A stretch of DNA of 64,000 bases from Ectocarpus siliculosus (taxonomy: Eukaryota; Sar; Phaeophyceae; Ectocarpales; Ectocarpaceae), in NCBI GenBank assembly GCA_000310025.1, contig FN649742.1, forward strand, positions 3,427,126 through 3,491,125. Direction: 5' to 3'. The notes under the pieces are model-generated. The model saw nothing but the letters and a program-made list of their open reading frames with translations, was not told where the DNA came from and did no database searches. Below are positions 1,722 through 39,200 of the stretch, piece after piece. The position numbers were made by a program, and so were the translations under genes. The stretch's first letter is position 1. Every line of letters begins with the position of its first letter.

Positions 1722-2265
1722 TTACCCCCCCCCTTCCAGCATCAACTCTCCGCCCCCACCCCCGCCATCCGGCTGAAGGCCGTCGTACGGCCCCAGGCCG
1801 AAAGAGTTCTCGAGGGTGTCGTCGGCCCCGCCGCCGTTCCCGTCCTGCAGGAATAGCCATTCGCTCATCTCGAAGAATTGGTAGCTGACGGCGTAGTGGC
1901 CGGCGCTCTGTCCCGCCTTGTTCTGTCGCAAGGTTGTCGGGTGAGGTTTCCAGCGAATGGGGGGGGGACGGTCACTGGGGTGAATGTGGTAAGGCACCGC
2001 AGAGTAAACAGTAGTTTGCTTATTGGAGGTACGGGGAGCGGTAGGTAGTGGTCGTATCATGCGTGCCGCTCGAGTATGGCATGTAGGCCAAGAGCACTGC
2101 ACGTCACCGAGAGGCTTGTCTACAGGAGGAACATTCGCGCACCTGGTGGTTGGGGTTAGCCCCCTTGTAGACATAGAGCTTGGCCATCTTTATGTTGCCA
2201 TTTTGGGCCGCCACTATAAGAAGGGTATTGCCGTGGTCGTCAGTTTTGTTCAGGTTGAACGGTTC
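1722..2265 (-). other. C-terminal ankyrin repeats
   Basis: Exon 2265-2143 encodes a near-consensus repeat, DDHGNTLLIVAAQNGNIKMA followed by KLYVYKGANPNHQ. Exon 1922-1722 continues NKAGQSAGHYAVSYQFFEMS, a second, divergent repeat. It ends in a Gly-rich tail and a stop codon at 1722-1724. Two repeats are visible; such pairs end many protist signalling proteins. Confidence 0.85.
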
Positions 2266-5200
2266 CTGAGGATAGACAGGGGGATTGTTTTCGGGGGATG
2301 CATCGCGTCACGGGAGGAAAATTAGTTTCGTTTCAAGAGTGATGCACGGGTAAATAGAGAGGCTGCCTTTTCTAGACTCAGACGAACTAAGGCATGGGAT
2401 ACCAATCGCAGTAGTAGTGGTGAGGGAACGGGGGGACACTCAAGAGAACATCGACGGACGGAAATGAGGACGTGGGGTCTATTGGGGGGGTGTTGTGACG
2501 AAACTAGTGTCGGTGCTCGTACGTCATACGTGATAGCAACTCTCGTCGCTGGGGTGGGCGCGAAGCTTGACATCCTCCCGTACTTGCACGGCCAGCACCC
2601 CGATCCCAACAGCGCTTTGCTCGAAACTAAAAAACGACCGGGTAGAAGTTGTGTTGGCTTTTTGCGATGGGCAAACCTCCCACATGTTTGGGGAACTATG
2701 GCGATCGTGTATGTATTTTTTCACGGTGGAGCATGGGTGGAGCCTTGCGTCGCGGCTAAAGCCCGTGCCGCACCTGCTCGTAGGCGTCGACGTACGCCGT
2801 TCCGAAGCCGGTCACGTACGGGACGCGAATGGTGCTCGTGTCGAACCTCCGATCGGGCAACGGTTCCAGTATCTCACGGATCTGCTTGTACTTGCCTGCT
2901 CGATTAGATACAGGTGCACGGCAGTGTAGAACATAGGTAGGACGTGTTGGAATCGCAAGAAACGGGTTGCATGTCACAACCAGAAACAAACGGGCATGTC
3001 CCACCCAGCAACAAACGGTCATGCCCATCGCTCATGGTAGGAGCAGGTGCGCTGATCTCCCCTGTCACCAAAGTACGGGGCAAACAATACACATGATAGC
3101 AAGCGCACGTCTTACGTCTGCTGTAGGCATCACTTTAGTAGTGCTACAACACCGACAGCATTGTGTGCGCGTGGTATTTGGCGTTTTGCACGGCGCACGC
3201 ACGCATTCACAGACGACGTATCCACCCACGAAAGTATACTCGAAAGCAACCGGCAACGCCAAGAGACAGTATAACACAGGTCAGACCAACACAAAACACA
3301 TGCAATACCTAGCATATGATACACTCCGCCGATGATTTTACACCACACAGGTCTCAATTTATCTCACGTACGTACCTCGGCGTGTGAGCACCAGGAGCTC
3401 CTTGAATTGGATCGGCACCGACACGGGCCCAATACCACCGCCACTAGCTCCCGGCGAGCCGCCCCCGTCAGCCGTCCCGACTCTGCCCAAAGCCTCGCCA
3501 GCGTCACCCAGAATGACCGGGTCGAACCCTTGGTCGAATGATTGCTGATGAAAGCCCTCCGGAGAGCCCTGCATCCCCTTTTGGCTCGACATCGCCTTTC
3601 AAGTCGAGAGGAGGGGGGGGGGGGGGGGGAGTGTCGGCTCAGTCACAAGGAACACCTGTTTCGAGCAAGGCTCAAGACCGTACTGCTGTGTCTCAACGAC
3701 TTAGCGCGGTCTTGTACTGACCATATGGGGTTTTGTGCGGTGTCGGTGGCAATGTTTTTTACGTCTTAAGTTTCTCGTTTCCTTGTGAGAGTGGTTCTTA
3801 TGAGCGGGTCGGCACCCTGTGTGAGAAGCTATGGCAAGAATCAGGGTGCACGTGGTGTCTGCCTTCTGGTGCGCCACAAGATACACGGACAACGAAGGCT
3901 AACGTGCTTTCTTTTACCTTAAGCAGTGAGGGAGAAAGCGAACGTGTAAGGGCTTCTCGTTTTCTCTTTCGGAGGAAAAAAAAGTTAGCAATATACTTCA
4001 AGTATACCTAAGGACATATAGCCGGCACGTCTTCGAATATGAAGTATTGTGAGTGCCACTGGCTTACCGAGTTGAGAGCGACCGGTCGGACTCTCTCCGC
4101 CTCGGCGGCCTTGAGGCGACCGATCGAGTTGAGAATTTTCTTGCGGTGCAGCCGGTGCTCCACTCCCAGGCTGCTCTTAAGGTCGTCATCGTTCAGGTCG
4201 TACAAGAACGCTCCGTCCACGGCCGCCGCGATGAAAGCCTCCTGGTACTGCGTCAAGGTCAACGTCTGCCGTGGGAGACGGGGGTACGGGGGGGGGGTAT
4301 GGTCGAGTGCAGGGGTAAGGGCGGCGAGCGGTAACCATGGGCGGAGGGCACGGGAGCGGCTGTTGGCAACGGAGCCATTAACTTCGTCAAGGTTGACCTT
4401 CGCTTGTAGTGGGTCGGGGGGGCATTAGCGGGTGTGCGCTTGAAGTTTTGCCGAGCTTCGGGTGTTCAAACGCTTGCAACGCGTACACTAGTCGGAGCGG
4501 TTGATGTGTGCGGGCTCGGGGGCGGTGCATGGAGGGAAAGAAGGGGGGCAGCCCTTTCCTATCTGACCACCGACCGTGATCTTTCGGGGTACCCCGGGCC
4601 TACACGTGGCAAAGGTAAAAACGAACGCATCTTGCAAGTCTCTGCCACGGTAGAAGCTCGACAGCGTTGCATGTCTGGTGGTGATGCAGCTTTGAGTGGT
4701 TAATGGCATGCTAGCGAACCGCCGGTCGACCTTGAGACAGAGCACAACAGGACGTCGATTGCCAAAGCGTCGACCACATTGGTGAAAAAGTCTTCTTTCC
4801 GGCCCCCTTGAGGGCCTTGAAGCACGACGACAATCATACCTCGGCAAGGAATCGAAATCACAAAAAAAAACTCGAAACAAGCACCTCGCAGTCTCCTGCA
4901 TCAAACCCGCAATGTGATATGTCTCGCCTGCAACCAACGAGCAACGTCGTCAACGCTCCACGCGGACACGGCAAGCGGCTCCTGCCCCGGGAGCTGCCCA
5001 GGCTTGAGTGCGGGTCGGAACGACTCCGCCCCTAACTTTTCGTTCTGCTCCAGCGCAAGAGCCCGCCCATCATCCCGCCCACCCCCGCCGTCGCCGCCAC
5101 CGCTTCCCGCCCCGCCGCCACCGGCACCGTTGGCGTTGTGCGCAAGTGCGGCCATGACGGTGTCGGTGGCTCCGACGCTGCGCATGGCGCGTATCATATT

Positions 5201-8200
5201 GAGGCTGCTGAAGTAGGTCATCGACATGGACATGAACCCGAACTTCATGAGCGTTTCCGTGGACTGCATGAGCTGGGCCGCCTGCCGCTTGTCCTTCGCG
5301 GACGGTCCCGCCCCGTCTCCGCCGCCGCTGAGCATGTCCCCAGGCCCGCCGCCGCTGCCGTCTCCGGACGCCGTGAGCAAGAGCACGCCTTTCTTTTCCT
5401 GGCGACGGCGGATGTTGTCCAGCTCCCGCTGCTGCTCTTCCAAGAGGACGACCAGCTTGCGTTCCAAGGTCCGCAGTTCTTCCTGCGATCGCGCGCGTGG
5501 CAGCAAGTTATTTATAGCGCGAGGTGACGTGTCCAAGACCGAAGGGCGGAGCAATAGGGTGATTGCCGTCGGAAACAAAAAATGATTCCGACCGGTAAGT
5601 TGTTGTGGGTCTATTTCGCTTCCCTCCGTTAAACAGCTGGTGTTGTTTCTGTAGCGTGGTGCGCTACAAGCCCGCTCTGAGGTAGATAACAACAACCCTC
5701 GTCCGCATTCCATTGAAACCCAGCCACCTCCCCGGAACGCGGCGTTCTCTTTCCGTGACGGCGTTTGCAGACGTTCTTTTGAGTGGAGAGGGGCGTAGAG
5801 TCAACGTTTGCTGTTTCAACAGACTCTCCGGACAGCGAAAACAACAACACACCTTGCTAGGATTCATGTTTTCGGATTTTGTCCCGATAGAGCCCACCAT
5901 GGGTATGAATAACGGAAACGAACACCTTCAACAGTCCAGTGGATGTAACTCTCTTCAGTATTGGCTGAGTGTCGTGGAGTGCCAATGCTTGCAACGGAAG
6001 AACACCCTACGGCAAAACACCGCGTCCTTTCAACACACCGCGTCCTTCCAACTCAAACGTCAACCGCAACAAACAAGCACGATCCGAATACATACGCAGT
6101 ATTTTAGAACACACCTCCTTGCCGAGGCGAGTCCTGTCGAGGGTGGCAAGCTTTTTCTCCATGTGGAGCAACCTATCTTTACGGTCTGCGATCTTGCCGA
6201 GCATTTCTCCAAACTCTTTGTCCAATCGAGCCTTTTGCTCTCGAAGCTCGAGCCTTGACAGGGCGTGCGTGCGTGCGAACGCAGGAGCGAGGGCGGTCGG
6301 GCGGATGCGAGTACAACCGAGGTGGTGAGGATGAGCGCTTGCGAGTATTCGGTGTGAAGCTCGGTATTCAAAAGTTATTACCAATGGGTGCCTGCTGTAG
6401 CAAGTATTACTCCATACACCTACGGTCCGCACCTGGATGTTGGATGCTTACCGCGATAGATCCGACAGAACCATGAACCGGTAAAGGATCCACCAAGAAA
6501 ACCCAAACGTCGAAGCTATCCAGAACTCGAACGAGACGTGCCACATCTTCTCGATGTCCCGGGTGGAAAAAGCAACAGACCGCCACTCCAAATAGCCATC
6601 TGGCGACACAAAAAAGCACAGCAGACGCCTCCCCGCTCAACCTGGCACCCTTTCCATTCAGCCCACCTCTCTCCACACGCCGTACACCTTAACTCTTACC
6701 GTGCCTCCTCGTCGAGGACCCCCACCGCCTCGGTCTCGATCTTGGACAGCTGGTGCATCTCCCTTTCGAGTACCGTCACCGCCTCCTCGAACTCGCTGAT
6801 CTCCTCCATCATCGCTTCCACGGCCTCCTCCGCCCCGACCTTCTCCCCCGTCAGCAGCTGGACGTCGCTCTGCAGCCGGGTCGCGTGGAGCTTGTGCTCG
6901 AGCAGCATCTGCCGGCCGAAGTCTATCCCCTGGCTCTGGCTCTTGGAGAAGAGGTACTTGTCGCGCTCCCGCCCCGCCCTGCGGCGACCCGTGTGCCCGC
7001 GGAAGACGCGCTGGATGGTCATGGCGTTGTACTTCTCCTCTCGGCAGCGGAACGCGTACCGCCGACCGGACACGCCCCTCCAGAGGGACTACAAAGGCGG
7101 GGTGGGTCAGCAATGAGTCATCGTGGGTTTGCGGGGTCATTGTCACCGCGGTGACGCGCCGTTTTGTGGGTTGGTGATGTGCTTGTTGAGAAAACATCGG
7201 GAGCTCTCCGCGTGAAGTTTTGCCGCGTTGGATAGGTGGCGTTGGGGCGCCGAGCTACATGGTGGAAGAACAAAGGTGCCGTTGTCTTTGCTGTGCCTCC
7301 CGGGACCGTGTGTGAGCATGCATAATCAAAACCTCAAGAATCTTCCGCCGCCCCCGTAATTCAGTCCTATAGCGTTATCACGACATCATCCCGACGCCCG
7401 GCTTGCAAGAAAACGTGTCAGAGATTGACTGCCTTCATCAACGTTCAGGCATCGGGGAGAGAGAACCACCTATCGACTCGGGACAGGGTCACCGTCTGAC
7501 CTGAATCACGGCGGCCGCGTGGTCCCGCCTTCTCCTGGTCGCCTTGACGAGCCGCCGGATGAGAGCCCCCCTCCACACGCGTTGCATGTGCCCGCACGCG
7601 GCTTGCTGCCGGCGGAGGAGCCGGAACCACCGCCGCGAGGCGTATCCCCTCCAGTTCCTCTGCACCACCTGGGCCGCCCACACCGACCTCAACCTGTGTT
7701 TGTGTCGGACACAAGCGCGCCAAAGCGCCACGCAGTATTTACAAGAAAATAAACAAGTATGGTTTGGTTTGGTTCGTCCAGCGTGCTCGGTGTTGGGGCT
7801 GTTTCATTTCGGCAACGCTCTCCACGAAGCACCACTAGGCCGTTCATCCGCACGCACATACGCTGTTGCGTGTTTCGTCGAGCTGGTGGTGTCCACAACA
7901 GAGATCTTCGTTTCAAGGAGCACGCAGTAGGGTTGGAGCCATCGCGCCTGGAGGGCTGATGGGGCTAGCAACGTTTTCGTCCTTTTGCCAAACACTGGTT
8001 TAGACTGCCACGCGGCGGTGCACCGTGTGGAGGGAAACCAAGAGAACGCAGATTGGATGTGATTGGCTCGAACTGCAGCACCCGGTTGATACACATGGAT
8101 ACGGCAACCCGCGCCGGGAATGAGTCTTCTCGCTTTTGCCATGCCCGTGCTTGCGAATCAGACGCGAGATCCCTTGAGACACTTCTTGTAGACATGTGGA

Positions 8201-11200
8201 AAGACGGTGGAAACGAACCCGCCAAGAAACGCCACCCAAGACAGCATCCAAGTTAACGCTTTCGCCTGCTGTAATATAATACAGCTGCCCCGACGCCGCT
8301 CACCACAATATCCTAAAAACGAAAAACCACACTGATTGCCGAGAGAGCTGTCCATGTCCGGCTACCCTCGGCCCACTTACTTCTCCAGAAACATCAGCCT
8401 CCCGCGCCAACCCCTGAAAATGGTCTGGATGTAGACACACGCCCGGTTCTCTCTCATGAGCTGGGCCCTCTTCAGAGCCAGGTAGGCGCGCAGGGCACCT
8501 TGGATCTTGCGCGCGGCCCGGTCCAGGCGAACCAGGCGCTTTCGATTGCGCTTCAGTCGCCAGGACATGTACTCCTTGACCTGAAAAATAGTTGTGTATG
8601 TCGCTCTTCTAGTTAGAGGTGGAACCAGGTACTGTAGAAAGAGCGTGCGATTGAAAGAGTTAAACGTCAAACAACTGTGGGTCAAGATTGGTTTTAGAAA
8701 TACTGCTTTCCGGAGTCTTTTGCCTTGCCAGAACGGGATCGATGTTCTTGTCCGTGTGTTTTCGAGAACGAGAGATGGGGGCCTGCTGCATCGCGAGTCC
8801 AACTCGCTCGCTGGTGCGTCACAGCATGTTTGTTGTGTGCGGCGAGGTTATGCCATGCGAAAGTGCCACTTGATTGAGTGCTTGGATCAAAGGCTCGTTT
8901 CCTTCATCATTGTCCTTCCCGAACCAGTTTCCTTATCAAAACACTCTGGGTCCTCTTTCGGGAGGCTACGTACCAGGCGTTCGGTGTGGAAAAACAGCGC
9001 TCCGTGTAACCTACCCCCCTTCAACCGCCACCATTTTCAAGAAGCATAACTTGGAACCTTCACCCACCTCTGGGAATTCCTCGGGCTGCGGGTAGACCTT
9101 GCTCCCCTGCCCAAACCCGTACACCAGGTTATCCTGACGCTCGAACGCCGGATGGGCCGCGTCCAACACAGTCCCAACCATGATGTTTCGCCCCTGCACG
9201 CGCCCGTTGCCCTCGCCTCCCGGCTTCCCGCCACCACGCCGTCGTCTGCCCTTGCCCCGACGATCTCGCCGCCATCGCTCTTCTTCGTCTGAGGCGCTCC
9301 CGGCGCCACCGGTGTTCCCGAAGTGCCCCCCCCTGTTGGCGGCGTTCGTGCCGGCGACGGCCACGCTCGAGCGATACTTCTCCCACGACGATCCGTACAC
9401 CTCGCCGAGGCTGCCGTCCCACGCCGATCCCATCTCGGTATTGTCGGCGGTTGTGTCCTCCTCTTCTCCCCCCCGGCCGTGCGCATCTAACGTGCTCGCG
9501 CTTCCGTCGCCGCCGGCACCGGCGCCGCGTCCGGCTCGCAAGAGGTTTCCCCGCTCCCGGTGGCGGGCCTCGGACTGCATGTCGGACATGGTGCCGAGGA
9601 CGTTGTCGATGAAGCTATCTTCGAAGGTATCGCCCCCGCCAATCCCGTTGCCGCTGGCCCCGCCGCCGATGGCCGCTGCCGCGCTTCCTCGCGTGGCGGT
9701 GCTCCGGCGGCTCTTCGACGCTCTCGCTTCGTCCAGGCCACCACCATGTCCTCCTGCTCCGACACCTCCAGCTCGACCAGCAGAACCGGGCTTGTTGCCA
9801 CCGGCAGTGGCATTGGTGGCCGCAAACTCTGGGTGGCTCATCGCGTAGACGACGTCGTTTCCCTCGTGGTATCCTGAGATGGCCTGTTCGAGGAGGGTTG
9901 TCGTTTGGATCCTGGCCTCCTGGAACAGCTCATGCCCCGCGTTCATCCACACCACGCAGGTCTTGCTCGGGTCTTGCAGGGCCTGTTGGCGTTGTCGTTG
10001 CGGTGCAGAACGGTGGAAAATGTTACTGTTCGCCGTAGACCGTACGAAAGAACAGCACGGTGTCTATGTAGAACAAGATGTCATGTCGCCTGCACTCTGT
10101 GTCGTATGGAGCCATTGCGTTGCTTACCGTGTGGTTGACGGGGGAGTGCCACCGTCTTGTGGTCTAGGTACACAATCTTCGGGGTGTACGAAGGTAGCAT
10201 GGACTGTTGTTCGGTATGTGGCTTCATCCATCTACCCGGCCTGTGGCATACGCCACTACGCTGTACACCTAGAGCGTGAACTACGTCTCAACCTTTGTGC
10301 GGATACAGCTCCGACAGAGCGACAGGCGAAAATGTTGACGATCCTACCAACACAGCCCCACCTCGCGCGTCAGAACCAGGGTGGCGCTACTTCACACCTT
10401 GTGGATGCTCCGGACCTCACCGCCGCGCCTCGAGACGTAAGGGTCGGTGTGCAACGGTTTGACAAAGTTGTTTTGGGTGCTCTGGATGCAGACAACGGGG
10501 ATGTCTATCTCGGAGAGCACCGGGCGCGTGTCGACGTGCGCGAGCGCCCCCTTGCAGAGCTGCAGCCGCCCTTTGACCGAGATCGGGTTGTGTACGGCCG
10601 TGTATATATTGAGCGCCAGCGGTGTCGATACCTGGGATGCAAAATCGGCATAAAGTCCGTCCGTTCGAAAACGAGCGGACGGCAAGTGAAACCATTTAGA
10701 GAACGTCGCAATGGGAGATAGAACGGAATTGAATAGGCAACATAATAACGCCTACCATTCGTGCAACAGGCTGGACTTGACACCGGCTCAGCCCGCCCCC
10801 CCTCTCCTGCAACTCGGACGCCCTCTTGTCCCGACCCCACCAGCATCAGGTTACAAAGGAGGGATATATAGGTACTTCCTCAGATCTCGTGCCGACATAC
10901 GAACATCTTCCGCCCAATGTCTGCCTCGCCATCACGCATTGACAGCCCAGACTTGATCGCGCGCGCATGGTAAACAAAATATCCACCACTCCGCCCCCGT
11001 GTTGACCGCCCAGCATTTGTTCTTAGCGATGGATTCAAGTACGTCAAAGCACACATCTTGCCTGTCCCAGGTACGCCGGGCTGAAGAGAAACCTGGCGTG
11101 GAAGTACACGGGCAAGTCGGGCCTGGACTCGGGAGCGCAGTTGAAGACGTTCATGCAGTCGTGCAGCACTCCGGCCAGGTAGGCGTCGACGTAGGAGAAG

Positions 11201-14200
11201 GAGTTGATTAGGAGCAGCGATCGCGGAGAAGGGGTTGCGAAGTGACTCGCGTAGAAGGTAGCCACCGCTCCTCCCGACCCGAACCCCACGAGGTGGTAAG
11301 GCCTGTCCGAGTCGAAGTCCCCTGCAGTCAGGAGTCAGGAGAAATGTTCGAGTACGTCGTTCAGTTGGGTGGCGGCCGGTAGGCGGCCGGTATGGTAAGC
11401 GCGCAGCGGAGCGGGTGGAGGCGGGCCGACGAAGTATTCGCACGTGGGGCAGGGGAGGAAGTTGGGATCGAGAAGCCCTTCAGGACACACAAGTAAATTT
11501 CGCGACGGATACCCCTTCAGAAGGATTTGTTGAGGGAGAAACCATGCGTATCGCGGAAACGGGATATGAGATCACGCCGTCACCAATGACCGCCTGAAAG
11601 TACCCCCTCCTAAAGAGTGTACGCTGCTCTGCTCATTGTGCGGTACCGCATAAATGTCCGTCCGCAGCGCTATTTTTTCTATTTTCAGGAGCTCCTCTTT
11701 GTCGCTTCTCACCGGTGCCGCCCTTGCTCTTCTTGCCGAGGTGCAGCAAGAGGAACTGCAGGATGGTGGACAGGTACTCATTGTTGAGCAGTTGCTGCTC
11801 TCTCCACTCACTGAAAGCCTGACCAGGATAGTTCCAGAGTAGCACCTGTTACGACGAGCACGTAGGACGGAGGGGTCTAAGGCGGAGCAGTGGTGAGAAA
11901 GCAAGTCGGGGCGCAAGGGGGGGATCTACCGGTCATAGCGTCCCATCCTGAGGGCACGTGCGCGACACGGAACACGCGTGGCCGTGCAGAAAATTTCCCT
12001 GCAAAGTACCGTATTCCATAAAAGGTATTTCCCCCGGCGATGTCTACTATTGGTTGTTAAATTGTGGTACCTTCGGGATTGCATTTTCTGTGTGGAGTGT
12101 GTGACAACGTGGTGACCCTGTTTATTGATCTGTTTGCAGCACGTTTTGGGCTCATGTTGAGCTACAAGCACATGCTCACTGGTTATGTTATTCTTTGTGT
12201 AATTGTATCTGTTGTGGCAGTGAAAGTCTTGTGTGTGAGTGTACGGTAGCTCAGCACTCGTGGCATGGTATCCACCAAACACACGTCCGCTTCTCCTCAC
12301 CTGCGCCCCTGGGTACCGTGCGATCAACGGCGCAACGACGATTTTCATGCGCTCGTAGTTGTCGAAGAGGTCGTGGCACACCACGAGGTTGAAGAAGCGC
12401 CCGGAAGACCCCCCGGCCGAAGGCGGTGACCCGACAACACAGTACGGGACAGCAGTATCCGCATCAACCTTGCACAAGCACGATGGGGACAAAGATGGTC
12501 ATGGTAGGGTAGTGATCACCGTCATGCATGCCGTGGGTATGAGTATCCCGGCCTTCGACCTAGATGGAGGACGCCGGGTTTCTGTTCAAATGACGGGAGA
12601 TGAACACAGCCACTACGGTGGCCACGCGTGGGAAGAGGTCGCCAGGTTTGAAAGACCCCACCTCTCCTGAAGTGCAACGCAATATTTGGAGCTACTTTTG
12701 TGTTGAACACAGCGAGCATGACCGAAGAAAGCAACCTTAAGACATGCGCCATGCGGCAAGTGGAAAAAATACCTGCAAGCTCCCCTCCACGCTGCCCTCG
12801 TGCCTCGGGGCTAGCGCCATGCCCTCAGCGGCGCACGCCGCCGAACCTTTCAGCACTCCCATCCCCTTGCCCTGCATGACCTTCATGCCGCCACCGCGGC
12901 CGGGACCAGCCCCGTTCGTGAGCGCGCCACCGTTTATCGACGACGGCCGAGAGAGATGCCGTGGGATCGCAGCGCGGAGAGTGTTGAGCAAGGGTCCCGG
13001 CTCAGCGGGCTTGGAGATGCAGCCGTCCATGCCGGCGGCCATGTAGGAGCGGAGGTCATCCGGAGAGGCCTTTGAAGTGAGGCATATTATCGGCAGGTGT
13101 CTGAGCTCGGCGGCTGGGGGGACGGAGGACGGGGCTGCGAAGGCAGAGAAGAGCGGGGTGGGCATGACGGTGGGGATGGCGGGGTTGTATGGACGTCGAG
13201 GTTCGGCAGTGGGTTCCGTCGAGACCACTTTTCGAGGTATCAGAGGTTTGGATGGTGTTGACGTTGACGCTGTTACCTAGCCGTCGTCTCACGTACGATG
13301 CATCATAAATATCCCACAGATGGTTCGTGGAGGGATGACCTGGACGCGAGCACGAAGACGGGGCCTTCATTGTGAAGCAACACGGCGGGGCATACACAAA
13401 GCGCTTGTCCAACAGGCCATCGACATCTACACTACGTCACCAATTGCCCTCGCATCCCGTCCGAAACAGCCTCTCTTGCGCTAAGCAGAGAGAGAGAGAG
13501 AGCTCTCCTGCACCGTACAGTGGCAAAAAATATCACATCTTTAGTGCTGGAGCAAGTTTTACCTCCATCATCCTGTTGCCGGCCTTGGCCGTGCGTCGTT
13601 GTTCCACCGCCGCCTGCTTTCGCGTGCCCTTCCACGGCAGCCGCCCGCACCATGGAAGAGCGGTTTCTTCGCGCCTTCTCAAAGTCTCTCAGGGCTGAGG
13701 CTATCTGGAAGCCGTCCATGACGGGCGTGTCTCGCTCGACCACGAGCGCGTCCCACTCCCCGTCGCCGTCGATCAAAGCTTCGAGCACCTGATCACGTCG
13801 TTGTTGGCGAGGGTATGGCGGGGGGTGGCAGCATGCTATGCGCTTGTAAGCAAGTTCTTTCAACGGACAAGTGAGTGTGAAAAACATAGGACCCCCTCGC
13901 CCACTGTGATTTTTCATTCGGGGGCAGGGTTTGTGGCCCAGCATTGCGAAAAGCGATGTGCGCCTGCCGCACGAGATGACCCCAAGTGCGCAGCGGTCTA
14001 CAAACACGCTGAGACGCGATGGCTACTCGCGATTCAACGGAAGGCTGGACCAGAAGCCGTCTGTTTCCATTTGTTAAGGGCTCCACGAACCTTCGGTTGT
14101 CCCTCCTTTGCTGTAAATACTATATTTCCTTCGCGAAACACCTATATTCCCTTCGCGAAACACCTAGCTCTCTTACCTGCTTGCCGTCCCCTTCCACCGT

Positions 14201-17200
14201 AACCATGTATCCCGCTTGCTCAAGCGTCTCCTTGATCGTCTTGGCAGATCTGGGCTCTGCCTCGGCAACCAGAACCCGTGCGTGGAAAAGGCCCGATCCC
14301 TCCTCCTCCCCGTCATCGTCCTGCTGGGGTGAGGGTTTACAGATCATGCTGTCAACAGAACTAGGCGGCGGTATTTGACGACATCCGTGGCAGCAGGGAC
14401 GACGCAAACCGGCGCCACCTAGGCAGGCACGAGTGTATTGTTGCAATCGACCTTGGACACTGAAATAGATATAGTAGTTGGTCATCGCGAATTTTCTCAA
14501 CACGCGTCAAGTGAAGGGTGGGATTAGTGGGTACGGGGTGGGTGGTGCTGCAACGTCACTCCACGGATGATCGCACGCGCGTTGCTGGTTTGAGGAAGGG
14601 GGGCAACATTCGCCAAGTCAAGCTAACCAAGCGAGGTTATTGCTGTAGCCGCCTTTGTGGGTCGGTGTGCGAGAGCCTCTGGTGTTGCGAACCTTGCTCG
14701 TGAAGAAACGATTACGCCCCCATGCAAGAGCACCCACCGCCTGGTGTTTCTCAAGATAACACAGCAGTACTTGAATCTCTCTTGCTGCATCACTACCAAG
14801 GTTGCCGTTGCTCGACTGTCGCTTCCTCACCTCGTGCCCTTCGGCAAACGACAACGAGCTCCCGTCGGTGGTCGTCCCTGCACAGCTTTCCCCGCCGCCG
14901 CTACCCCGACTTAACCCTAGCCCCCTCTTCCTTTTCTCACGCTTGGCCGCCGAAGCCGAAGCACACCCTCGGAGGTAGTTGTCCAGGTCCTCAAACTTTT
15001 TCCCAGACGAGAGAGCCGGGCGATTGGCGAGCCCCTTGCCCTTGTTCTGACCTGCTCCGTTCCCTTCTTCCAGCCTCCCTCTCCATGTGTGAGCCTCCCA
15101 CCCGCCCCCGCTGAACCCCCCACTCCCGTCCGCCCTGTGTCGACGCTGTTTCTTGGCTTGGCCGTCGTCGTCTCCATGGCTGCGAGGACGAGTAGGCAGG
15201 GCACCCGCAGCGGTTGATCGGGTAGAATCGCTGCCGCCGCCGCCGCCGCGTCGACGGCGGCGGCGCTCTTGCAGCTCGTCCGAGCTCACGCTCACCGGGT
15301 CTGTACCTTCTTCTTGTGCGCTGTAGAGGTCGTGCTGCTTCGCTCTTGGTCGCCGTCTTCGCGGTACGGAAGACCTGAGCGGCGGGACGCGTTAAGCGGG
15401 TGCAGAGAAACGAGGGCAGGGAGATCGTGCGGAGCACTTTTCAACCCTGCCTGCGGAAGGCGTACAATGGGCTTCTTGCGGCACGATCAGCCTCTATGGT
15501 ACATATACAGCAAATCCAATGATGTTACCACTACCCAACACCTCACCAAAGCATCCCCGGCTCACCTTGAAGAGTCAAGGAAGTCTGAGCGCTCGCACAC
15601 GGCAAGCTCTTCCGCAGTGAGGGCCTCCTGACGGGCGATAGCCGCCCGCGCCTTGTCCAGCAGAGCGTACACCTGTGGTGCGGTGATATTGCGCGGTTTT
15701 CGGTGGACGGATCGATGACATAAGCGCGGACTGCTGGAGGTGATGAGGACCACGCTTCCTCGCGCCCGTTGTCAATGAAAGGAATAGCAATTGAACCTGT
15801 CCCATCCGTCCGGACCGGCACTTGCTCCGTTGCGTCGCTGAGAATTTCTTTGGGAAGCCAATAAAGGCGAAGGTAAGGTTTGGGACAGCTTCAGGGCCTA
15901 GATTGTATGTGTGCTGTCAGTTTACCCGTCAAGGCCATAATCGTATTCCATAATCGTATGCCCACGAGCCGTCATTGTGCGAAATATCACATCGTCCCTA
16001 GATCGACTGTCATAAGCTCGATTGGTTTTAGAACCAACACCGCACCACTGCCGATAAGGGTGATTTCGGAAGATCTCGTCGAGAGCTTTCCTTAGACCTA
16101 TGGACCGTTTTTTCGCACCCTCCTGGTTGTGGAGCAATCGAGCTATAATATGAAGGTCGGTCCGCGGGGATGCGATCAACTACGGAGCTCACTCACCCTG
16201 AAACAAGACCCACACACGCGAACAGGTTTGTAAAAGTTCTGGGCGCCTCCTGCTAGGAACTCGTCCTCTCTCTTGCGAGCGTGCTGCCTCATCGTACTAG
16301 ATTCCGTCTCCTGCAGCGAGCGTCTCCGAGTATCCTTCTGCCCTTCCCCGCTGCCGCTGGAACCATCTGCACCCTCCCCCACCCCACCCTTTCCCACCGT
16401 ACCAAACTTGTTTTGCGTCTCGCCCGAGTCAAGGAGAGACAGCCCTTCTTTGTCCTCCTTGGCGCTACCCGCTCGATTTTCCCTTCCCCTTCTCGCTAGA
16501 CTTATGCTTTTCCACGAAACCTCGGACCAAGCCGTAGGGTCCCTGTCCTTCAGCCCCCCTGCGACGGGGTCGCCTTTGGGTCCTCCACCAGCTCCGCAAT
16601 GTCTTCCTGGCGCGGAAGCTCCCCCTCCTGCGTGCTGTCCCCCTTCCCCGCCCCCCGCCCCCGCTGTCGTGGATGACGGAGTTTTCACCTCCATCACGAG
16701 ACCCTCCTCTATCTGACGGCGGAAACTCGCATCCCTGCGAAGAGCGGACAGTTCTTGCCCGCTGAACAGCCGTGTGGCCACCTCCAGTTAAGCCAGCGGT
16801 CGGGGTCGATTGGATCGAGATCGGCGACGACCAGCGGGCAGTTGTCAGCTTGTAGAAGAACCTACGCTATTTCAAAGTACTGTTTTGCCCACACGAAGAA
16901 CAACTGCCTCGCCCTGACGTTGCCTTTGTATTCATCCTTCCTACAGCTGTTTCTATACATTTCGCGCACAAATGCTGACCGCGGTTCTGAAGGAGTCAAC
17001 GAATAGTGTAGGTCGTGGGTGCTAAGGATGGCAATATTTTCACTTTCCTCCGATGGCCCAGAGCGATGCAACACGTAAAACTGCAAAGATCTTACTTAGG
17101 ATCCGCAACCCACCCCCTCAAACACAATATCGTTTTCATCAGCAGGTCTTTGAAGCGATTCAGACAATTCTACGGGCAGTAAGTCGCATCCTCTAGACAA

Positions 17201-19210
17201 CCGAAGAAGTCAGACTGCGGGGGCCTTTAGTTCGCGTTCGCCCAAACACCCTACGCAGTAGCTAGACCTAGTCTTCACTCAATAGTACATGCGATGCACA
17301 CCTCCGTGAAAAAATCTTTGTCGGAAATAGCCGGATCGAGCAGCGACCCTTGTGGATCTCGTTTCTTGCGCGGGTCATCCGCGTCCTCTCGCGGGTCCTG
17401 CGACGAGTACAGCACACATCTTCGCAAAGTGAGAGACAGCAGTGTCGAACTGCCATGGTACTTGGCGGATAACCCTCAAACACCCTGGCCAGATGGAGTC
17501 GCGTGTCATGCTTTATAGCAGTGATGCTGCGATTGCCGTTGAATTTGCTATGTTGCTGACGTCTGCAGATGTACGTTTGCATGCCAGGGTAAATACAGGA
17601 TACACATAACCGCGAAGAAGCTTCAAACACACGACCGCACCCGCGTTCCCACAAGGGCGTTGCCAAGCCGGTGAGAGTCGGCAACAAGGCGACCCGAACA
17701 ACAGCAGAAAATGCCTCAATGGCTTTTTCTCTGGCACCAAAACTGTTCACGGCGAAGTCAACCTGTTGCGAGTACCATAGGACCGTTGCTTTCAGTATGT
17801 ACACTCCACATGCCCATTCTCCACCCCCAGCACCACCACCCTCACCGCCACCGTCAATTCCGGAATCGACAGGCAATGCTATATCAACACGCTTTCCCGG
17901 GTGCCAAACAAACACACGCTGCTGTCACCTCTCACCAGTACTCGGATCGTGCAGTAGTCCCCAGCGCATGCGAACGAGCTGGGAAACCGTTTCTCCCCCA
18001 GTGATCTGCCACCACTACCCTTGGCCTCCCACGCCTCGCCAGTTTTCACCCCAACTGTCATCGTCGACAGAGTGGTTGCTCTCATGGTGGCGTCTACGTT
18101 CTGTTCGCGCATGCCCGCCAACGAGGGAGAGGAAGACGACCCGGCCACTACCGACGACGAAGTTCCTGCTCCCGGAAGCGAAACCATGGCCCCATGTTTT
18201 GCCGCTTTCGCGCGGGAGAGCACGTTCGCTATACCCCCCGAGCCTCCGGCGCCGAATTTTTCGCACGGTAGCTCGATCACTTCCGCCGCACGGTCTACGG
18301 CTTCCCCCAAGTCTGCTTCTTCCCCTGTAGACGCCGCCCCTGCTGGTGGGCAATCAACCCGACGGCGGGCCTTTCTCGTTGGACCCGGAGGGCCCCCGAA
18401 TTCTCTCTGCATGTCGAGCGCGTTCTGTGGGCCTAGAAACTCGCCGCGCCCGCGCGGCCCCTCCATCGCAACGTTGGCGAGTCGCAGGTCTCGTGCGGCG
18501 TCTGCTACCGCAGTTGTCGTCTCTCCCATCCAAGTCAGCCAGATTTGACTCGCGGCATCCACGACGTAGTCGCACATGAGGCCGAGGATGCGGGTGGGTT
18601 TATCCTGCTCGGCTTCGATGTAGCGCACGATGCCCAAGGTGACGGCGTCTAGCGCCTTGTTTATGCTAGAAGCCAAGCACTTCTCGAGTTTGATCTCCCG
18701 TTCGCTCCACGTGCACGACGGGGTCGCTGCCGTTTGGTCGGCGGCGAGCGTGGTGAACGAGCTCGTTCCTGTCACGGCGAGACCCTTGTCGTTTACGACC
18801 CGATAAGAGTTACGGTAGACGGTCCCACTTGCTCCCTTCCCCTGCATGTAGCACTGGATGGACACAATCCCTGGCTCCGTTGCCGGAAACTTGCTCATCA
18901 TCTCCTTGAAGGCTTCCCTCCCGAGGTTCCGGACCGTGCCGTCCATGAACCGCACTGTTGCTATGCGTTGATGAGGGTTGTTGGGGTTAGTGGCGAACAG
19001 GCGTGTGAACCTCTCCTTGATGCTGGACTTTCGCAACGACCTCTTATTGAGGACATCTCCCGTTTTCGATGTGAAGAGCCAGACATGCGGTGCACCATCT
19101 CTGAACAAGATGGTGTCCGGAATCCCGAGCCGGAGGTTCGCGTTGCCGACGAGGTTTTCCATGGCCCATGACGGCGAGTGCGTGATATTTTCACGTGTCG
19201 AGGTCGACAT
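1722..19210 (-). CDS. Giant scaffold: pseudo-receiver, pseudo-alpha/beta-hydrolase, IQ, coiled coil, SAM, ankyrin
   Basis: The model has 22 exons and about 2,500 codons. Exons, 5' to 3' on the minus strand: 19210-17936, 16861-16197, 15672-15566, 15374-14771, 14323-14177, 13788-13563, 13227-12773, 12468-12301, 11845-11713, 11321-11062, 10631-10398, 9982-9068, 8580-8381, 7693-7501, 7088-6700, 6253-6115, 5482-4928, 4265-4068, 3568-3376, 2895-2774, 2265-2143, 1922-1722. All junctions keep frame, with a single break inside the second exon. Domain order: unrecognised N-terminal region (1-425), Cys-containing region (426-683), low-complexity linker, receiver (about 899-1100), alpha/beta-hydrolase fold (about 1175-1450), Gly/Ser-rich linker, six IQ motifs (about 1750-1905), coiled coil, SAM (about 2208-2275), ankyrin repeats (2399-2490). 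The receiver and hydrolase lack key catalytic residues. IQ motifs bind calmodulin in known families, so a calcium-responsive scaffold is an inference. The first-to-second exon join is the least certain; it could also be two genes, but exon phases argue for one. Confidence 0.75.
3611..3630 (-). repeat. C-run (G-run on plus) before an acceptor of gene 1
   Basis: A run of about 19 G on the plus strand is a poly-C tract on the coding strand, about 43-62 bases upstream of the acceptor of exon 3568-3376. It probably serves as part of the polypyrimidine tract. Confidence 0.75.
4106..4975 (-). other. SAM domain split by a GC-AG intron
   Basis: The first helix, AWSVDDVARWLQ, ends exon 5482-4928. The rest (TLTLTQYQEAFIAAAVDGAF, then LYDLNDDDLKSSLGVEHRLH, then RKKILNSI) begins exon 4265-4068. 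Joined, they form a complete sterile alpha motif with the expected W-S-x-x-D-V, D-G and L-x-x-L-G positions. The donor used is CAG|GCGAGA, a GC donor. Confidence 0.88.
5330..6950 (-). other. Coiled-coil region of gene 1
   Basis: The end of exon 7088-6700, all of 6253-6115 and the start of 5482-4928 encode highly charged, heptad-like sequence rich in Glu, Lys, Leu and Arg, for example EELRTLERKLVVLLEEQQRE. The frame is continuous across both introns. A role in dimerisation or as a spacer is inferred. Confidence 0.75.
6950..8520 (-). other. Six IQ (calmodulin-binding) motifs
   Basis: Exons 8580-8381, 7693-7501 and 7088-6700 encode a run of IQ-type motifs: IQGALRAYLALKR, IQTIFRGWRGRL, VQRNWRGYASRR, MQRVWRGALIRR, IQSLWRGVSGRR (the IQ falls on an exon junction) and IQRVFRGHTGRR. 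Spacing is about 20-25 residues, as in myosin necks and similar proteins. Several follow IQxxxRGxxxR closely, which in known proteins binds calmodulin or a related light chain. Confidence 0.9.
9905..12415 (-). other. Alpha/beta-hydrolase fold lacking Ser and Asp of the triad
   Basis: The domain is spread over five exons. Landmarks in order: FNLVVCHDLFDNYERM, then LLWNYPGQAFSEW (oxyanion-strand region), then the nucleophile elbow HLVGFGSGGAVATFYA, then IPVVCIQSTQNNFV (acid strand), then TCVVWMNAGHELFQEA. In active members the elbow reads G-x-S-x-G-G; aligning GFGSGG puts Gly1275 at the Ser position. Asn occupies the usual acid position (about 1401-1402). His1442 (in AGHELF) is kept. The fold is therefore recognisable but hydrolysis is unlikely. 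One of its introns has a GC donor at 11061-11060. Confidence 0.75.
12960..14281 (-). other. Degenerate response-regulator receiver domain (three exons)
   Basis: The beta1 strand and acidic cluster are in exon 14323-14177: RVLVAEAEP, where active receivers have two or three consecutive acidic residues. The phospho-acceptor turn is in exon 13788-13563: VVERDTPVMDGF. Aligning TPVMDG with the usual MPxMDG places Glu951 (codon at about 13735-13737), not Asp, at the acceptor position. The third exon holds LPIICLTSKA, keeping the switch Thr, and GCISKP, keeping the conserved Lys (about residue 1081). A low-complexity insert of about 90 residues separates the halves. Glu at the acceptor mimics phospho-Asp in studied receivers, so a constitutive, phosphorylation-independent receiver is inferred. 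Confidence 0.75.
15566..16861 (-). other. Cys-motif region of gene 1 with a reading-frame break
   Basis: Two adjacent exons. The first (16861-16197) opens after a TAG acceptor and reads CPLVVADLDPIDPDRWLN in frame. At about 16783 the frame must shift by one base to continue as SGQELSALRRDASFRRQIEE and run to the motif KPVRVCGSCFR at the donor (16197). The next exon (15672-15566) continues VYALLDKARAAIARQE. The joined CGSCFRVYALLDKAR motif supports the splice. The break is either a one-base assembly error or a 20-nt GT...AG segment removed in some way. Confidence 0.6.
17936..19210 (-). other. First exon and N-terminal module of gene 1
   Basis: This is a 425-codon open exon. The first ATG is at 19210; the frame is open upstream to about 19228 but has no earlier ATG there. 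It closes at a CTG|GTGAGA donor. The protein has a conserved-looking globular part (about residues 17-250, with a Lys/Arg-rich stretch and several Trp residues) and then a Ser/Ala/Gly-rich part. A Cys-x3-Cys pair (CAGDYC) sits just before the donor. I do not recognise the fold. A START-like or other lipid-binding fold is possible but nothing visible proves it. Confidence 0.6.
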
Positions 19211-34900: not shown

Positions 34901-35755
34901 ACCCGGAAACAGCGAAATCGAGGACACGTGGTGTGGTTGATTGGGAGGTGGTCCGATTCGTTGAACAACGGCGGTGGTGCCGAAGGCAGTGAGTGGCCGA
35001 TGATGAACTTGGAACGTTGGGGACAAAGCTCGCCCCTACGCAAGCCCTGCAGGGCGAAGAAACACGCATCTTATGCGGGATGCGTGTGTCGAAAAAGCAT
35101 GATACATGTATCTCAAGCACATGCACGGACTTTTTCAGGCAGTAAGACAGATCGATCGCTCTGTAGTCGGAACGGCCGAAAACACTCAACCGGCACACAC
35201 ACGACGCTTTTCGGCGAAAAACACCAAAGCCACGTTGCCTGTCGACAGTCAGTCGACAGCCGTCGACAGGCATGATTGATTTTAGGTTTTGGCTTGCCGC
35301 CCGGCTCCGAGAATACCTGGTGCAAGCACCACGGGGGGGAAGCCAAAGTGATGCCACCAAGCGCGGTGTGGTTGATGCACCGCAGCCCCATTAGAGCGTG
35401 TATGACGTGGGTGCCGAGAATCCTCGCCGGTAAAAGTCGGTGTATGTATACAATGAACTGACTACATTTTGCTGCCGCTGGTGTACAAACTGGATACGTC
35501 TGCCGCTGCTGAAAGCAACTAGATAAGAAGCGCAACTTATCCCCCCATCTCACGCCATGCTTTGAAACGGGTGACACGCATAGCGCACTAACAAGCTGTC
35601 CCTGAAATGTGGCCTCTCACCACGAGCTTCGCAGCGAGGATAGTAAAGCGGCGGCCCATCCAGATTCCGAACGGGAAGCAGAGCAGCGAAACGGCAGCCA
35701 GCACGGCGAACCATACCGTCTCCAGCGTCGTGTTAGCTTGGTCGAAGAAGCCCAT
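28963..35755 (-). CDS. Seven-transmembrane protein of unknown family
   Basis: Seven phase-consistent exons: 35755-35621, 32809-32707, 32191-32097, 31632-31490, 30901-30694, 30219-30130, 29547-28963; 452 aa. The start ATG opens MGFFDQANTTLETVWF. Hydrophobic segments lie at about residues 13-33, 46-63, 80-98, 122-145, 168-191, 200-222 and 236-252. A short N-terminus with an N-x-T site (N8-T-T) precedes the first. The last exon is a 194-residue hydrophilic tail with Gly/Ala, Arg and acidic runs and no motif. The layout (short N-terminus, seven helices, long charged tail) resembles GPCR-like or TOM1/THH1-type proteins, but I see no signature of either. The first intron is 2.8 kb. The second exon (VVCLLLAYENLVLALS) is the weakest of the set but fits in frame and hydrophobicity. 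Confidence 0.75.
32810..35620 (-). other. Long first intron of the 7TM gene
   Basis: A 2.8-kb intron between the start exon (donor GTG|GTGAGA) and the next exon (acceptor ttcttcag). It contains triplet-like runs (tactgctg repeats at about 33428-33449) and several short open frames on both strands without motifs. No nested gene could be supported. Confidence 0.5.
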
Positions 35756-35999
35756 GGGAGCCCTCGCCGTTTGTCAAGCCTCCCGCCGGCCCCGTGCTAC
35801 AGAACACACACCTCTCCCAACGGTGCTTGCGACACCACATTGCCTCTGCTGGCTGCTGCGCGCAACAAGCAGCGGGTTTTTCAGGCGGGGGCTACGCAGT
35901 ATCATGCCATCCCTACCCCCAAAGAGGAGATGTGCCGCAATCGCAGAGCAAGGAGCAGAGCGCATGTGGTACTCTGCTAAGCACTCGCTGTCGCGTCGC
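35756..35999. promoter_or_regulatory. 244-bp divergent intergenic region
   Basis: It separates the start codons of the minus-strand 7TM gene (35755) and the plus-strand methyltransferase gene (36000). Both 5' UTRs and both core promoters must fit here unless either gene has an upstream non-coding exon. No clear TATA box is seen. Shared or bidirectional transcription control is inferred from spacing alone. Confidence 0.55.
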
Positions 36000-36228
36000 A
36001 TGGTGTCAACACGTGGGAAGTCAAGAGCCATGCGGGTACATGCGCTAGTAACTGCCGTGTTGGCAGCCTCCGTGACCATGCCTTCTTGCTCCAGAGTACG
36101 GGCATTTTGCGTTCCCTCCTGCTCCCGAGCACATCGTCCGACGCCCCCCTCGTCCTTAACAGGCACGAACATGTCACATCGACGAAGAGCGCGGCATGCA
36201 CGAACAACAACACCGCCGTTGCACATGG
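36000..36228 (+). other. Bipartite plastid-targeting leader
   Basis: MRVHALVTAVLAASVTM (from 36030) is a hydrophobic signal. It is followed by SRVRAFCVPS, in which Ala-Phe falls at the expected signal-peptide cleavage site as in the ASAFAP motif of heterokont plastid proteins. An Arg/Ser/Thr/Pro-rich, acidic-poor transit segment runs to about residue 75, before MAFDPDVTPGALDAFHVWL. Confidence 0.75.
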
Positions 36229-39200
36229 CCTTCGATCCAGACGTGACGCCCGGCGCTCTGGACGCTTTCCACGTGTGGCTAACCAAGTCTGGAGTTAGAC
36301 TCACAGACAACGCGGTCCTCGCCGGCAGATCACCGCTGGCGGGGGAGAGGGGCTTGGTTGCCGCCAAGGCTATCGAGACCGGCCAGTCGGTGTTGGCGAT
36401 CCCGCAGTCTCTTGGCCTGACCGCCACGGGGCTCAAGAGCTCGGGCATCGCGCAGTATGTGGAGGGATTCGAGGGCTGGACCGGCGAGACGGGCCTGATC
36501 GCCTTGCAGGTCTTGTGGGAGAGGGCTCAGGGGGAAGGATCCAAGATGGCACCATGGATCGCAGTCTTGCCCAAGGAGGGAGAGCTCGAGATGCCGCTCT
36601 TCTGGGGCGAGGCTGATCTTACGCTGGCCGACGCGTCTTCGACCAGGGTGAGGAGGTTAACAGCGACTTGGTGTCCGCTCTTTCATCGCCAAGTCTTTTA
36701 TTGGGAACGCATCTACAGAAGTTTATGGTACATGCACCAGATATCATGTAGAACTCGCCGCATTTTTGTGCATGTTTCTCGTGACGACGTGTGCACTCAC
36801 TTACTTTGCCGCATCCGGTGGTGCCGACGCCAACACTCGTTTCGCAGCGTGCTGGGGCTGGCAATATGCTGTGTTATGCGCGCGTTATGACTTGCAAGGG
36901 CCACGTGGGCTGTCAGGGGCTATGAAGTATGCATTGAGCGGGATTGGTAGTACTGGCGGTGTGTGGGGTTCCTATTTCGGACGGCGAAAACGAGCAACAC
37001 ACAAGACTAGCGGGTACCACCTCTATGGTGATATGACAAGCAACTCATCGTTTTCATTGGACGCAGACAACCCGAACCGCTGGGATATGCCGTTTACCAG
37101 TACACTTGGCCTCCTACTTTCGAGTCTACCCGTGTCTATCGGACTCAGAGGTGTTCCCGCGGGGACGGCTTCCCAGCCGACGGCGTGTACACTCCATTTC
37201 ACACTGCTACAGGCACAGGCGAGAGTGTAAATATTGACCTTTTTTGTTTCCTGTCGAACTCTTTGGCGGGCGCTGTACCCGCGCACGTGCTTCGCACACG
37301 GCGATTCTCACAGGGGATATCCGGCTTCGTCGCCGACGTAGACGAAGATTTCGCTTGGCTCAGCGAGAACGCTTTCGCGAAGCACCCCAAGGTCTTCCCC
37401 GCCGACAAGTTCGGGCCAGGCGACTTCCGGTGGGCCGTTGGGGTGGCGCTGTCACGTTCCTTCTTCGTCGACGGAGAGCTCCGGCTTACCCCCCTCGTTG
37501 ACTTTGCGAACCACTCGTCGTTGCGGGGAGTGTCAGAGCCGACAGGTGGGTGTCACTGAGAAGCGCACAGCACGTACTTCGATATCTTTGCGCTACAATA
37601 TCCCGAAAAATCGCATGTGCTTTGTAGGTGTACGTCATGTCTACCCTGGACCTGGTTCCGACCAACACACCTGGCATGGCGGCGGAACTGCGGTAGCAGA
37701 CATGTCCCGACGTTCTGACGACGCGATGACCTGCTGTCAGGCGGCTGGTGTGGATTTTTTCAGTCGCCCGCGGTGATGCCAACGCCGCAGTTCGCTAGGC
37801 GAGGTTTCCCACCAGCTCAACGCGCTACATATCGCGCGCGTTGCTCCCTGTCTGGTTGACCCGTGCTCGACAAAGGAGGAACAACGGGCCTTTTCGGGTC
37901 GAAGGCCGTGGTGCTGAGAGCGGGAAAGAACTACGAGGAGGGCGAAGAGTTTTTTGTCAGCTACGGCCCGAAAGGCGCAGCCGGTTACCTGGAAGAAAAC
38001 GGGTACGTCTACTTTCGTGGACCATTGCTTGTCATCGCTGCTGTAGGTGTAGCCCAAAAGTGTGAAGCAGTCTAGCCTCGCACCAGCAAGAGGTTGCCCG
38101 GGAGCGAAGTAGCCAACAGTTCGATCATCAACGGTCCAACAAGTAAGGTTTTTCCGCTCTCAGCTACTGCGTCGACCTGAGGAAATCCACTTCCACTGGA
38201 TGCATGGCATGACTTTTCACGGAGCTTACGTTCAGGTACTTTTTGTTCCCGGCATCGTCAGACCAAGATGACTAAGACATTTTGATACCTACTTCAGCAA
38301 AGAAAAAGGGATGCAATTGTATGACCGGACCCCGTTGCTTCTAGCAAAACGCTTTCGTTGGTGAAACTGCGCCTCATCCTGTTGCTGTTGCCATGGTGTT
38401 GTCGCAGTCTTACGTGCTGAGCTCCATCCAGTACCTCCGATTCCGCATTCTTCAACGGCGAAGCACCGAGTTGCCGCAATCACGAGCTATCCCGATTAAA
38501 GGCGCGCAACAAAGGCGAAGACCTAGAGAAAGTGCAAAACAAAGGCGAAGACAGAGCCCCGCCACTCGTGTGAATGGTCGCCCGCTTCTTGTTAGAAGCC
38601 GTCTTCACCCTGTTCCGTTCTGCTCAGTGGGCTCGGTCGACGCGTGGGGAACAGTAGTCGCCCGGACTACCACGTGCGTGTGCTCAGGGTTGTTCTTGTC
38701 GATACCGATTGCTCTCCGCTCGTACGTTGTGATTCAGGTTCGTGCCTCCCGTGTCTGGATCCGAGGTGACGTGTGAGTTGGAGTTCAGCATTCCGGAGGA
38801 CGACAAGTTCTTCGACGATAAGGTGCGACCCTGCCGTAGACTACACAACCCGGCGATGATACCAGTTTGGGAATCTAGAAAATTATCACCGGATGTGTGT
38901 GTAGTTGTGGGGGAGGGTGGTAGCGTGTGCCGCCCTTTTTTCTTGATCTGAAGGTTGTGTTAATGTTTTGGGCTGATATTGACCCGACATCTTTATTTTT
39001 TACCACTGGGTGCGGTATTGTGTCTTATTTTGTATATGTACGGTATTCACGACGACCGTTGCAACGCTGTTAGCGTGGTACCGTGAGCTAGACGGCCCCT
39101 GCCGATTGGTCGCGGTGTGTGCCCGGCGCCAGAGAATAGTGTCGCGGTGGCTGTCACCTTGGTAACTTTCGTCCTGGTGCACTAAAGCTAGTCCGTGAAG

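Follow-up and report, generated by a model that had tools for sequence, protein, structure and literature searches.

The brown alga Ectocarpus siliculosus carries, in a 64,000-nucleotide stretch of its genome (contig FN649742.1, positions 3,427,126 to 3,491,125; referred to here as the window), a predicted multidomain gene on the minus strand running from 19210 to 1722, which we call C17. When spliced, the gene gives a single open frame of 2473 amino acids with no internal stops, built from 24 exons (Table 1) and 23 introns of 47-687 bp, of which 21 have GT-AG and two have GC-AG borders. The GC-AG introns (2/23) start at 11061, after 11062, and at 4927, after 4928. The predicted protein comprises, in order, an N-terminal domain, a CxxC motif, a pseudo-receiver, a hydrolase-like domain, six IQ motifs, a coiled coil, an FMSMS motif, a SAM domain and two ankyrin repeats. 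An initial annotation of the window had placed its named modules in one phase-compatible chain at about these positions, and both the spliced frame and a Pfam search of the spliced protein bear this out, with the hydrolase falling just under its cut-off. The phase continuity it described also holds, but not its count of about 22 exons, as the model has 24, or 23 if exon 3 is left out. Three elements had been missed: the N-terminal domain (19210 to about 18460), the CxxC motif, and a conserved LMKFxFMSMS motif preceding the SAM domain.

When codon usage was tested by leaving out one exon at a time, the frame of the model scored best for 23 of the 24 exons (in-frame values per codon between -0.05 and 0.66). 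Of the 23 introns, 22 were negative in all three frames. The low intron scores are partly a product of construction, because the same introns define the background and stops are penalized. Neither exon 3 nor the 47-bp "intron" that follows it (16781-16735) fits this pattern, the latter being coding-like. The reading frame shifts near 16785, for which there are three possible causes: an intron of 47 bp, the skipping of an exon, or an assembly error of one base; a model without exon 3, in which exon 4 starts at 16781, also maintains the frame and has 23 exons. Exon junctions cut the receiver (7/8/9), the hydrolase (10-14), IQ motif 5 (16/17), the SAM domain (19/20) and the ankyrin region (23/24). 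These junctions lie inside recognized domains and therefore lend independent support to the joins concerned.

Domains of the predicted protein

The Pfam search recovered Response_reg (PF00072) in two stretches split by a loop (E 6.8e-13, 49.2 bits against a cut-off of 30.2), IQ (E 7.6e-11, 41.3 bits against 20.3), SAM_2 (E 3.1e-16, with SAM_1 also matched) and Ank_4 (E 6e-11, along with several other ankyrin models), just two ankyrin repeats being evident. These profile matches support the earlier view that the interaction modules are intact. NCBIfam returned receiver matches of a generic kind and a weak match to a hydrolase, while PHROGs searched with the hydrolase domain only gave one chance-level match, and no relatives of exon 12 were found in viral contigs or in bacterial and archaeal contigs. 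The first 880 residues have no Pfam match. Against solved structures, the N-terminal part gave just two weak, chance-like rows and the FMSMS motif gave no match; a structure of exon 1 predicted from a single sequence had a mean predicted local distance difference test score (pLDDT) of 36 and was not used.

The six IQ motifs of the initial annotation are present, at residues 1720, 1745, 1771, 1797, 1824 and 1850, and their spacing of 25-27 residues is maintained over two exon junctions. Four of the six match the full consensus, one begins with M, and one is partial, having no Gly; four full matches were reached in one of 5000 shuffles of the block. The closest solved relative of the array is the neck of myosin-Va (E 2.6e-6). 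A coiled coil follows at about residues 1890-2030, according to a heptad signal that was computed crudely.

Aligned with CheY-type structures, the receiver has Glu (residue 946) in place of the phospho-accepting Asp, like the pseudo-response regulators (PRRs) of the plant clock, Glu and Ala at the first and second pocket acids, and the conserved Thr and Lys. It is a receiver by profile that lacks a residue needed for phosphotransfer, which is what defines a pseudo-receiver (PMC12632262). According to the same source, Glu typically replaces the phospho-Asp in plant PRRs and generally does so in ascomycete Rim15p; in many response regulators such a Glu can partly mimic phosphorylation, an effect that has been disproved in some pseudo-receivers (PMC12632262). 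The window pseudo-receiver differs from these in being tied to a dead hydrolase, IQ motifs, a SAM domain and ankyrin repeats. In PRR/TOC1 and Rim15p, the pseudo-receiver is linked to CCT/DNA-binding or kinase regions.

Paralogs, the hydrolase nucleophile and the receiver/stalk slot

A genome search with the SAM/ankyrin region returned six pieces of the window gene itself and one relative, on contig C27. An IQ/FMSMS query gave 11 matches, six of them in the window gene, and led to a third member, on contig C22. The C27 paralog (plus strand, about 967.2-980.4 kb) follows the order of the window gene, with a CxxC motif, a hydrolase in three pieces, IQ motifs, the FMSMS motif, SAM and ankyrin. Its region yielded seven collinear matches at E<=1e-3, compared with none over 50 shuffled queries and none with the reversed query. 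Two uninterrupted frames join parts that are exon-split in the window: one of 768 codons (969285-971588) holds the CxxC motif, a stalk domain and the start of the hydrolase, and one of 1032 codons (972471-975566) holds the end of the hydrolase, with its His, and the IQ array. In the C22 paralog (minus strand, about 560.0-544.1 kb), tblastn recovers the same order from CxxC to ankyrin. The architecture had been presented as unfamiliar; it is not unique, as these two genes share it apart from the receiver.

Further family members may be present in the genome beyond C17, C27 and C22. A relative of the N-terminal domain lies on the minus strand of C15 (L030, C15:2681600-2691599; E 0.0016 genome-wide, 6.5e-7 among the stretches retrieved). 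After it come a CxxC motif (E 0.007) and frames that are long and coiled-coil-like; no hydrolase was found there. A likely copy of the same domain lies on the minus strand of C56 near 151.7 kb (L033, C56:144600-154599; E 0.083 genome-wide, 8.9e-6 among the stretches retrieved). A genome search with PF00072 gave 14 matches, and because the window's own exon-split receiver was not among them, this search leaves room for others of that kind.

The elbow, acid and His motifs of the window hydrolase retain their order, and VGFGSGG aligns with VGFSMGG of an arylesterase, with Gly replacing the nucleophilic Ser and Asn at the acid position. All three members have Gly at the nucleophile (GFGSG in C17, GIGNG in both C27 and C22), and all three retain the catalytic His; the aligned acid is Asn in C17, Asp in C27, and Asn in C22, where an Asp lies one residue earlier. 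Since the Gly is common to all three, the simplest account is that it predates the duplications and does not reflect damage to the window copy. Both enzyme-like modules had been described as dead, a label that suits the hydrolase, with no nucleophile in any member, better than the receiver, a D-to-E pseudo-receiver in what is often a phosphomimetic state. From its residues, "phosphomimetic-type pseudo-receiver" fits better than "dead". PMC7022630 describes nonenzymatic hydrolase-fold proteins that have likewise lost the nucleophile and act as interaction modules or scaffolds; the window domain differs in keeping its His and in sitting within a protein of 2473 residues. Pfam listed no Ndr domain (NDRG family) in the window protein up to E=1.

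Between the CxxC motif and the hydrolase, in the place taken by the receiver in the window gene, both paralogs carry a match to the microtubule-binding stalk of dynein heavy chains (PF12777, cut-off 24 bits), at E 6.1e-9 and 35.8 bits in C27 and E 2.1e-19 and 70.2 bits in C22, covering positions 90-206 and 76-206, respectively, of the 344 in the profile. Compared with solved sequences, the C27 stalk gave 29 matches at E<=0.1, most of them named dynein heavy chains and 12 of the 29 named axonemal or flagellar; one match spans residues 13-137 of the 155 in 2rr7, an isolated dynein stalk-tip construct. No match to an AAA+ motor was found near the paralog stalks among the frames scanned (10 in C27, four in C22). 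Nor did tblastn find a receiver in the paralogs, the only matches being chance ones on C22 (E 0.68 and 0.86). The stalk domains lie within 4486-6789 of L020 (plus strand) and 2092-3063 of L047 (minus strand).

Receiver exons 7-9 open and close in phase 0, as is typical of a cassette that can be shuffled. We tentatively suggest, as a possibility we would not yet favor, that a single slot has been exchangeable among these dead-hydrolase calmodulin scaffolds, holding a stalk with no dynein motor seen in two members and a phosphomimetic pseudo-receiver in the window member. If this is true, such an exchange would convert a calcium scaffold anchored to microtubules into a coupler of two-component-type signaling to the same cytoskeletal structure, and would amount to a natural experiment in re-targeting a cytoskeletal scaffold by exchanging one domain.

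A candidate calmodulin-linked scaffold and its alternatives

The explanation that we consider probable is that the locus is one gene encoding a calmodulin-loaded scaffold of about 2470 residues, assembled through its SAM domain and coiled coil and probably belonging to a microtubule-associated family, with the pseudo-receiver in the stalk slot. A calcium/calmodulin-linked scaffold had already been proposed in the initial annotation and is the natural inference from sequence; the microtubule context, which comes from the paralogs' dynein stalk, lies beyond what the window alone could show. By analogy with known families, the IQ array would bind calmodulin or related light chains and form a lever-like arm responsive to Ca2+. 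The coiled coil and SAM domain may drive the formation of oligomers, perhaps mixed ones that include stalk-bearing paralogs, while the dead hydrolase, the receiver held by its Glu in a phosphorylated-like shape, and the ankyrin repeats could serve as docking surfaces. The stalk in the paralogs would give microtubule contact, and the family is therefore probably cytoskeletal; the stalk-bearing members would sit directly on microtubules of the axoneme, the basal body or a cortical array. The window member, which would not bind microtubules itself, might bring a signaling partner to the same structure. It may join that structure via the paralogs or act elsewhere, as direct microtubule contact is not indicated.

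Such a protein would unite a receiver from the histidine-kinase world with calcium/calmodulin signaling in one polypeptide that also carries a fossil enzyme fold, and its paralogs carry the microtubule-binding domain of dynein in a setting in which no dynein motor was seen. Each module is known singly; the protein as a whole would be a multidomain pseudoenzyme scaffold. The tandem IQ array recalls the neck of unconventional myosin-V (PDB 8of8, 2ix7). No motor domain was found in the window protein, whose IQ motifs are 25-27 residues apart. In myosin-V, as in the window protein, a coiled coil comes after the IQ array. Liprins and SARM1 have a similar SAM domain (among the best 60 of 231 rows), but the window protein has a single SAM with other neighbors. 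Dynein heavy chains share their stalk with both paralogs, in the same slot, and not with the window gene. Among the matches listed in the open-licence full-text literature, no title or abstract start describes this domain combination, and other protists may quite possibly have relatives that are not annotated.

Several observations weigh against the explanation we prefer. The gene model was read from genomic sequence alone, its exon 3/4 junction is ambiguous, and calmodulin binding, oligomerization and a microtubule link of the window protein are all predicted properties. The match of the window protein to Abhydrolase_6 is sub-threshold (E 4.2e-5, 24.7 bits against a cut-off of 26.3), and the arylesterase alignment that places the catalytic residues is weak (E 0.73). 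Pfam does not recognize the hydrolase pieces scanned from C27 and C22, so their assignment comes from similarity to the window domain. In a seven-sequence set searched with a two-sequence profile, the N-terminal domain found weak matches upstream in C27 (2.2e-6 and 2.6e-4), and the corresponding frame of C22 does not match the window significantly (E 0.29). The window gene has no stalk domain by Pfam, and none was found in window positions 1-22000 with introns included (best tblastn E 0.17). Finally, because the receiver is absent from both paralogs, what ties it to the rest of the window protein is frame, phase and position.

This last point bears on whether the locus might instead comprise two or three adjacent genes, with receiver exons 7-9 or exons 1-6 on a separate transcript. 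Each of exons 6, 9 and 14 ends in phase 0 and could read through to a stop, and when exon 6 is extended in frame, the extension scores -0.17, which is intermediate between coding and intron sequence. Against this, introns as short as these could hardly accommodate gene flanks, and sequence read in frame upstream of exons 7 and 15 does not score as coding (-0.44 and -0.46). Single frames in C27 also join the CxxC motif to the hydrolase and the hydrolase to the IQ array, so that a split of the window gene at these places would disrupt an order that is conserved. We regard separate genes as unlikely, and the initial claim of one gene is supported by the C27 frames and the C22 order. Two breaks had been named as possible, and because the 1032-codon frame of C27 covers both joins uninterrupted, neither is likely. 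One between 10398 and 9982 is rejected, as it would fall within the hydrolase domain, where the corresponding C27 stretch is one frame; one between 9068 and 8580 is unlikely, given that the hydrolase end and IQ array of C27 share one 1032-aa frame. A decaying gene is the least probable alternative of all: the frame change near 16785 has to be explained by a 47-bp intron, exon skipping or an error in the assembly, and exon 3 is the sole exon not scoring best in frame, but the other 23 do so and the chain stays open across 17 kb.

A more serious competitor, although one we still think doubtful, is a scaffold with no microtubule role, acting in a soluble or membrane two-component/calcium pathway, the stalk of the paralogs being a borrowed protein-binding module. 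The lack of a stalk in the window gene and the partial profile coverage in both paralogs are in keeping with this, whereas the window gene shares the order of its other modules with the two stalk-bearing members, and the C27 match covers most of the 2rr7 stalk tip. That one or both enzyme modules are still active, with the Ser beside the Gly in VGFGSGG as nucleophile or the receiver phosphorylated elsewhere, seems very unlikely. The His is retained in all three members, the window protein has a Ser one position on, and an acidic Asp is present in C27 and one residue early in C22; however, the paralogs carry Asn at that Ser, the aligned acid is Asn in two of the three, and the receiver is without its phospho-Asp and one pocket acid.

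Exon coordinates and other observations

Table 1. Exons of the predicted gene C17, in coding order; coordinates refer to the window.
Exon	Coordinates	Strand	Content
1	17936..19210	-	First in-frame ATG at 19210; N-terminal domain, about aa 1-250, fold without assignment
2	17302..17397	-	Coding score best in frame
3	16782..16861	-	Uncertain; frame change near 16785
4	16197..16734	-	3' end carries CxxC motif (FYKPVRVCGSCFRVY, Cys pair 16214-16203), matched in C27, C22 and C15
5	15566..15672	-	Remainder of CxxC motif region
6	14831..15374	-	Low-complexity linker
7	14177..14320	-	Receiver part 1, acidic pocket E-A; 5' side phase 0
8	13563..13788	-	Receiver part 2; Glu at phospho-acceptor (codon 13737-13735), then low-complexity loop
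9	12773..13134	-	Receiver part 3, conserved Thr and Lys retained; ends in phase 0
10	12301..12468	-	Alpha/beta-hydrolase part 1; matches C27 and C22
11	11713..11845	-	Alpha/beta-hydrolase part 2
12	11062..11321	-	Nucleophile elbow VGFGSGG, Gly (11280-11278) at Ser position; GC-AG intron next
13	10398..10631	-	Alpha/beta-hydrolase; Asn (10472-10470) at acid position
14	9068..9982	-	Hydrolase C-terminus, His retained (AGHE, codon 9934-9932), then long Gly-rich linker
15	8381..8580	-	IQ motifs 1-2
16	7501..7693	-	IQ motifs 3-4
17	6700..7088	-	IQ motifs 5-6 (IQ 5 cut by 16/17 junction) and start of coiled coil
18	6115..6253	-	Coiled coil
19	4928..5482	-	Coiled coil, LMKFxFMSMS motif (5284-5156), start of SAM; GC-AG intron next
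20	4068..4265	-	Remainder of SAM
21	3376..3595	-	Linker towards ankyrin region
22	2774..2895	-	Ankyrin lead
23	2143..2265	-	Ankyrin repeat
24	1722..1922	-	Second ankyrin repeat and C-terminus; stop TAA 1724-1722

Elsewhere in the window, between 46000 and 64000, the GC content increases from about 0.54 to some 0.65-0.69 across most of 46-58 kb and once more near 62-64 kb. Open frames on the plus strand at 55416-58245 are reminiscent of the beta-propeller found in UBR4, a giant E3 ligase. Plus-strand frames at 35592-37600 are reminiscent of a SET-domain methyltransferase of the Rubisco-methyltransferase type. An AGG repeat of about 53 copies (81% match) at 63491-63650 gives a long Glu run in one frame. 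In the wider genome, five receiver matches fall at 4.26-4.55 Mb on C16 (L006-L009 and L011). Two of these loci, L006 and L009, hold two putative intronless hybrid histidine kinases beside putative ribonucleotide-reductase pieces, an arrangement resembling a phaeovirus-type insertion.

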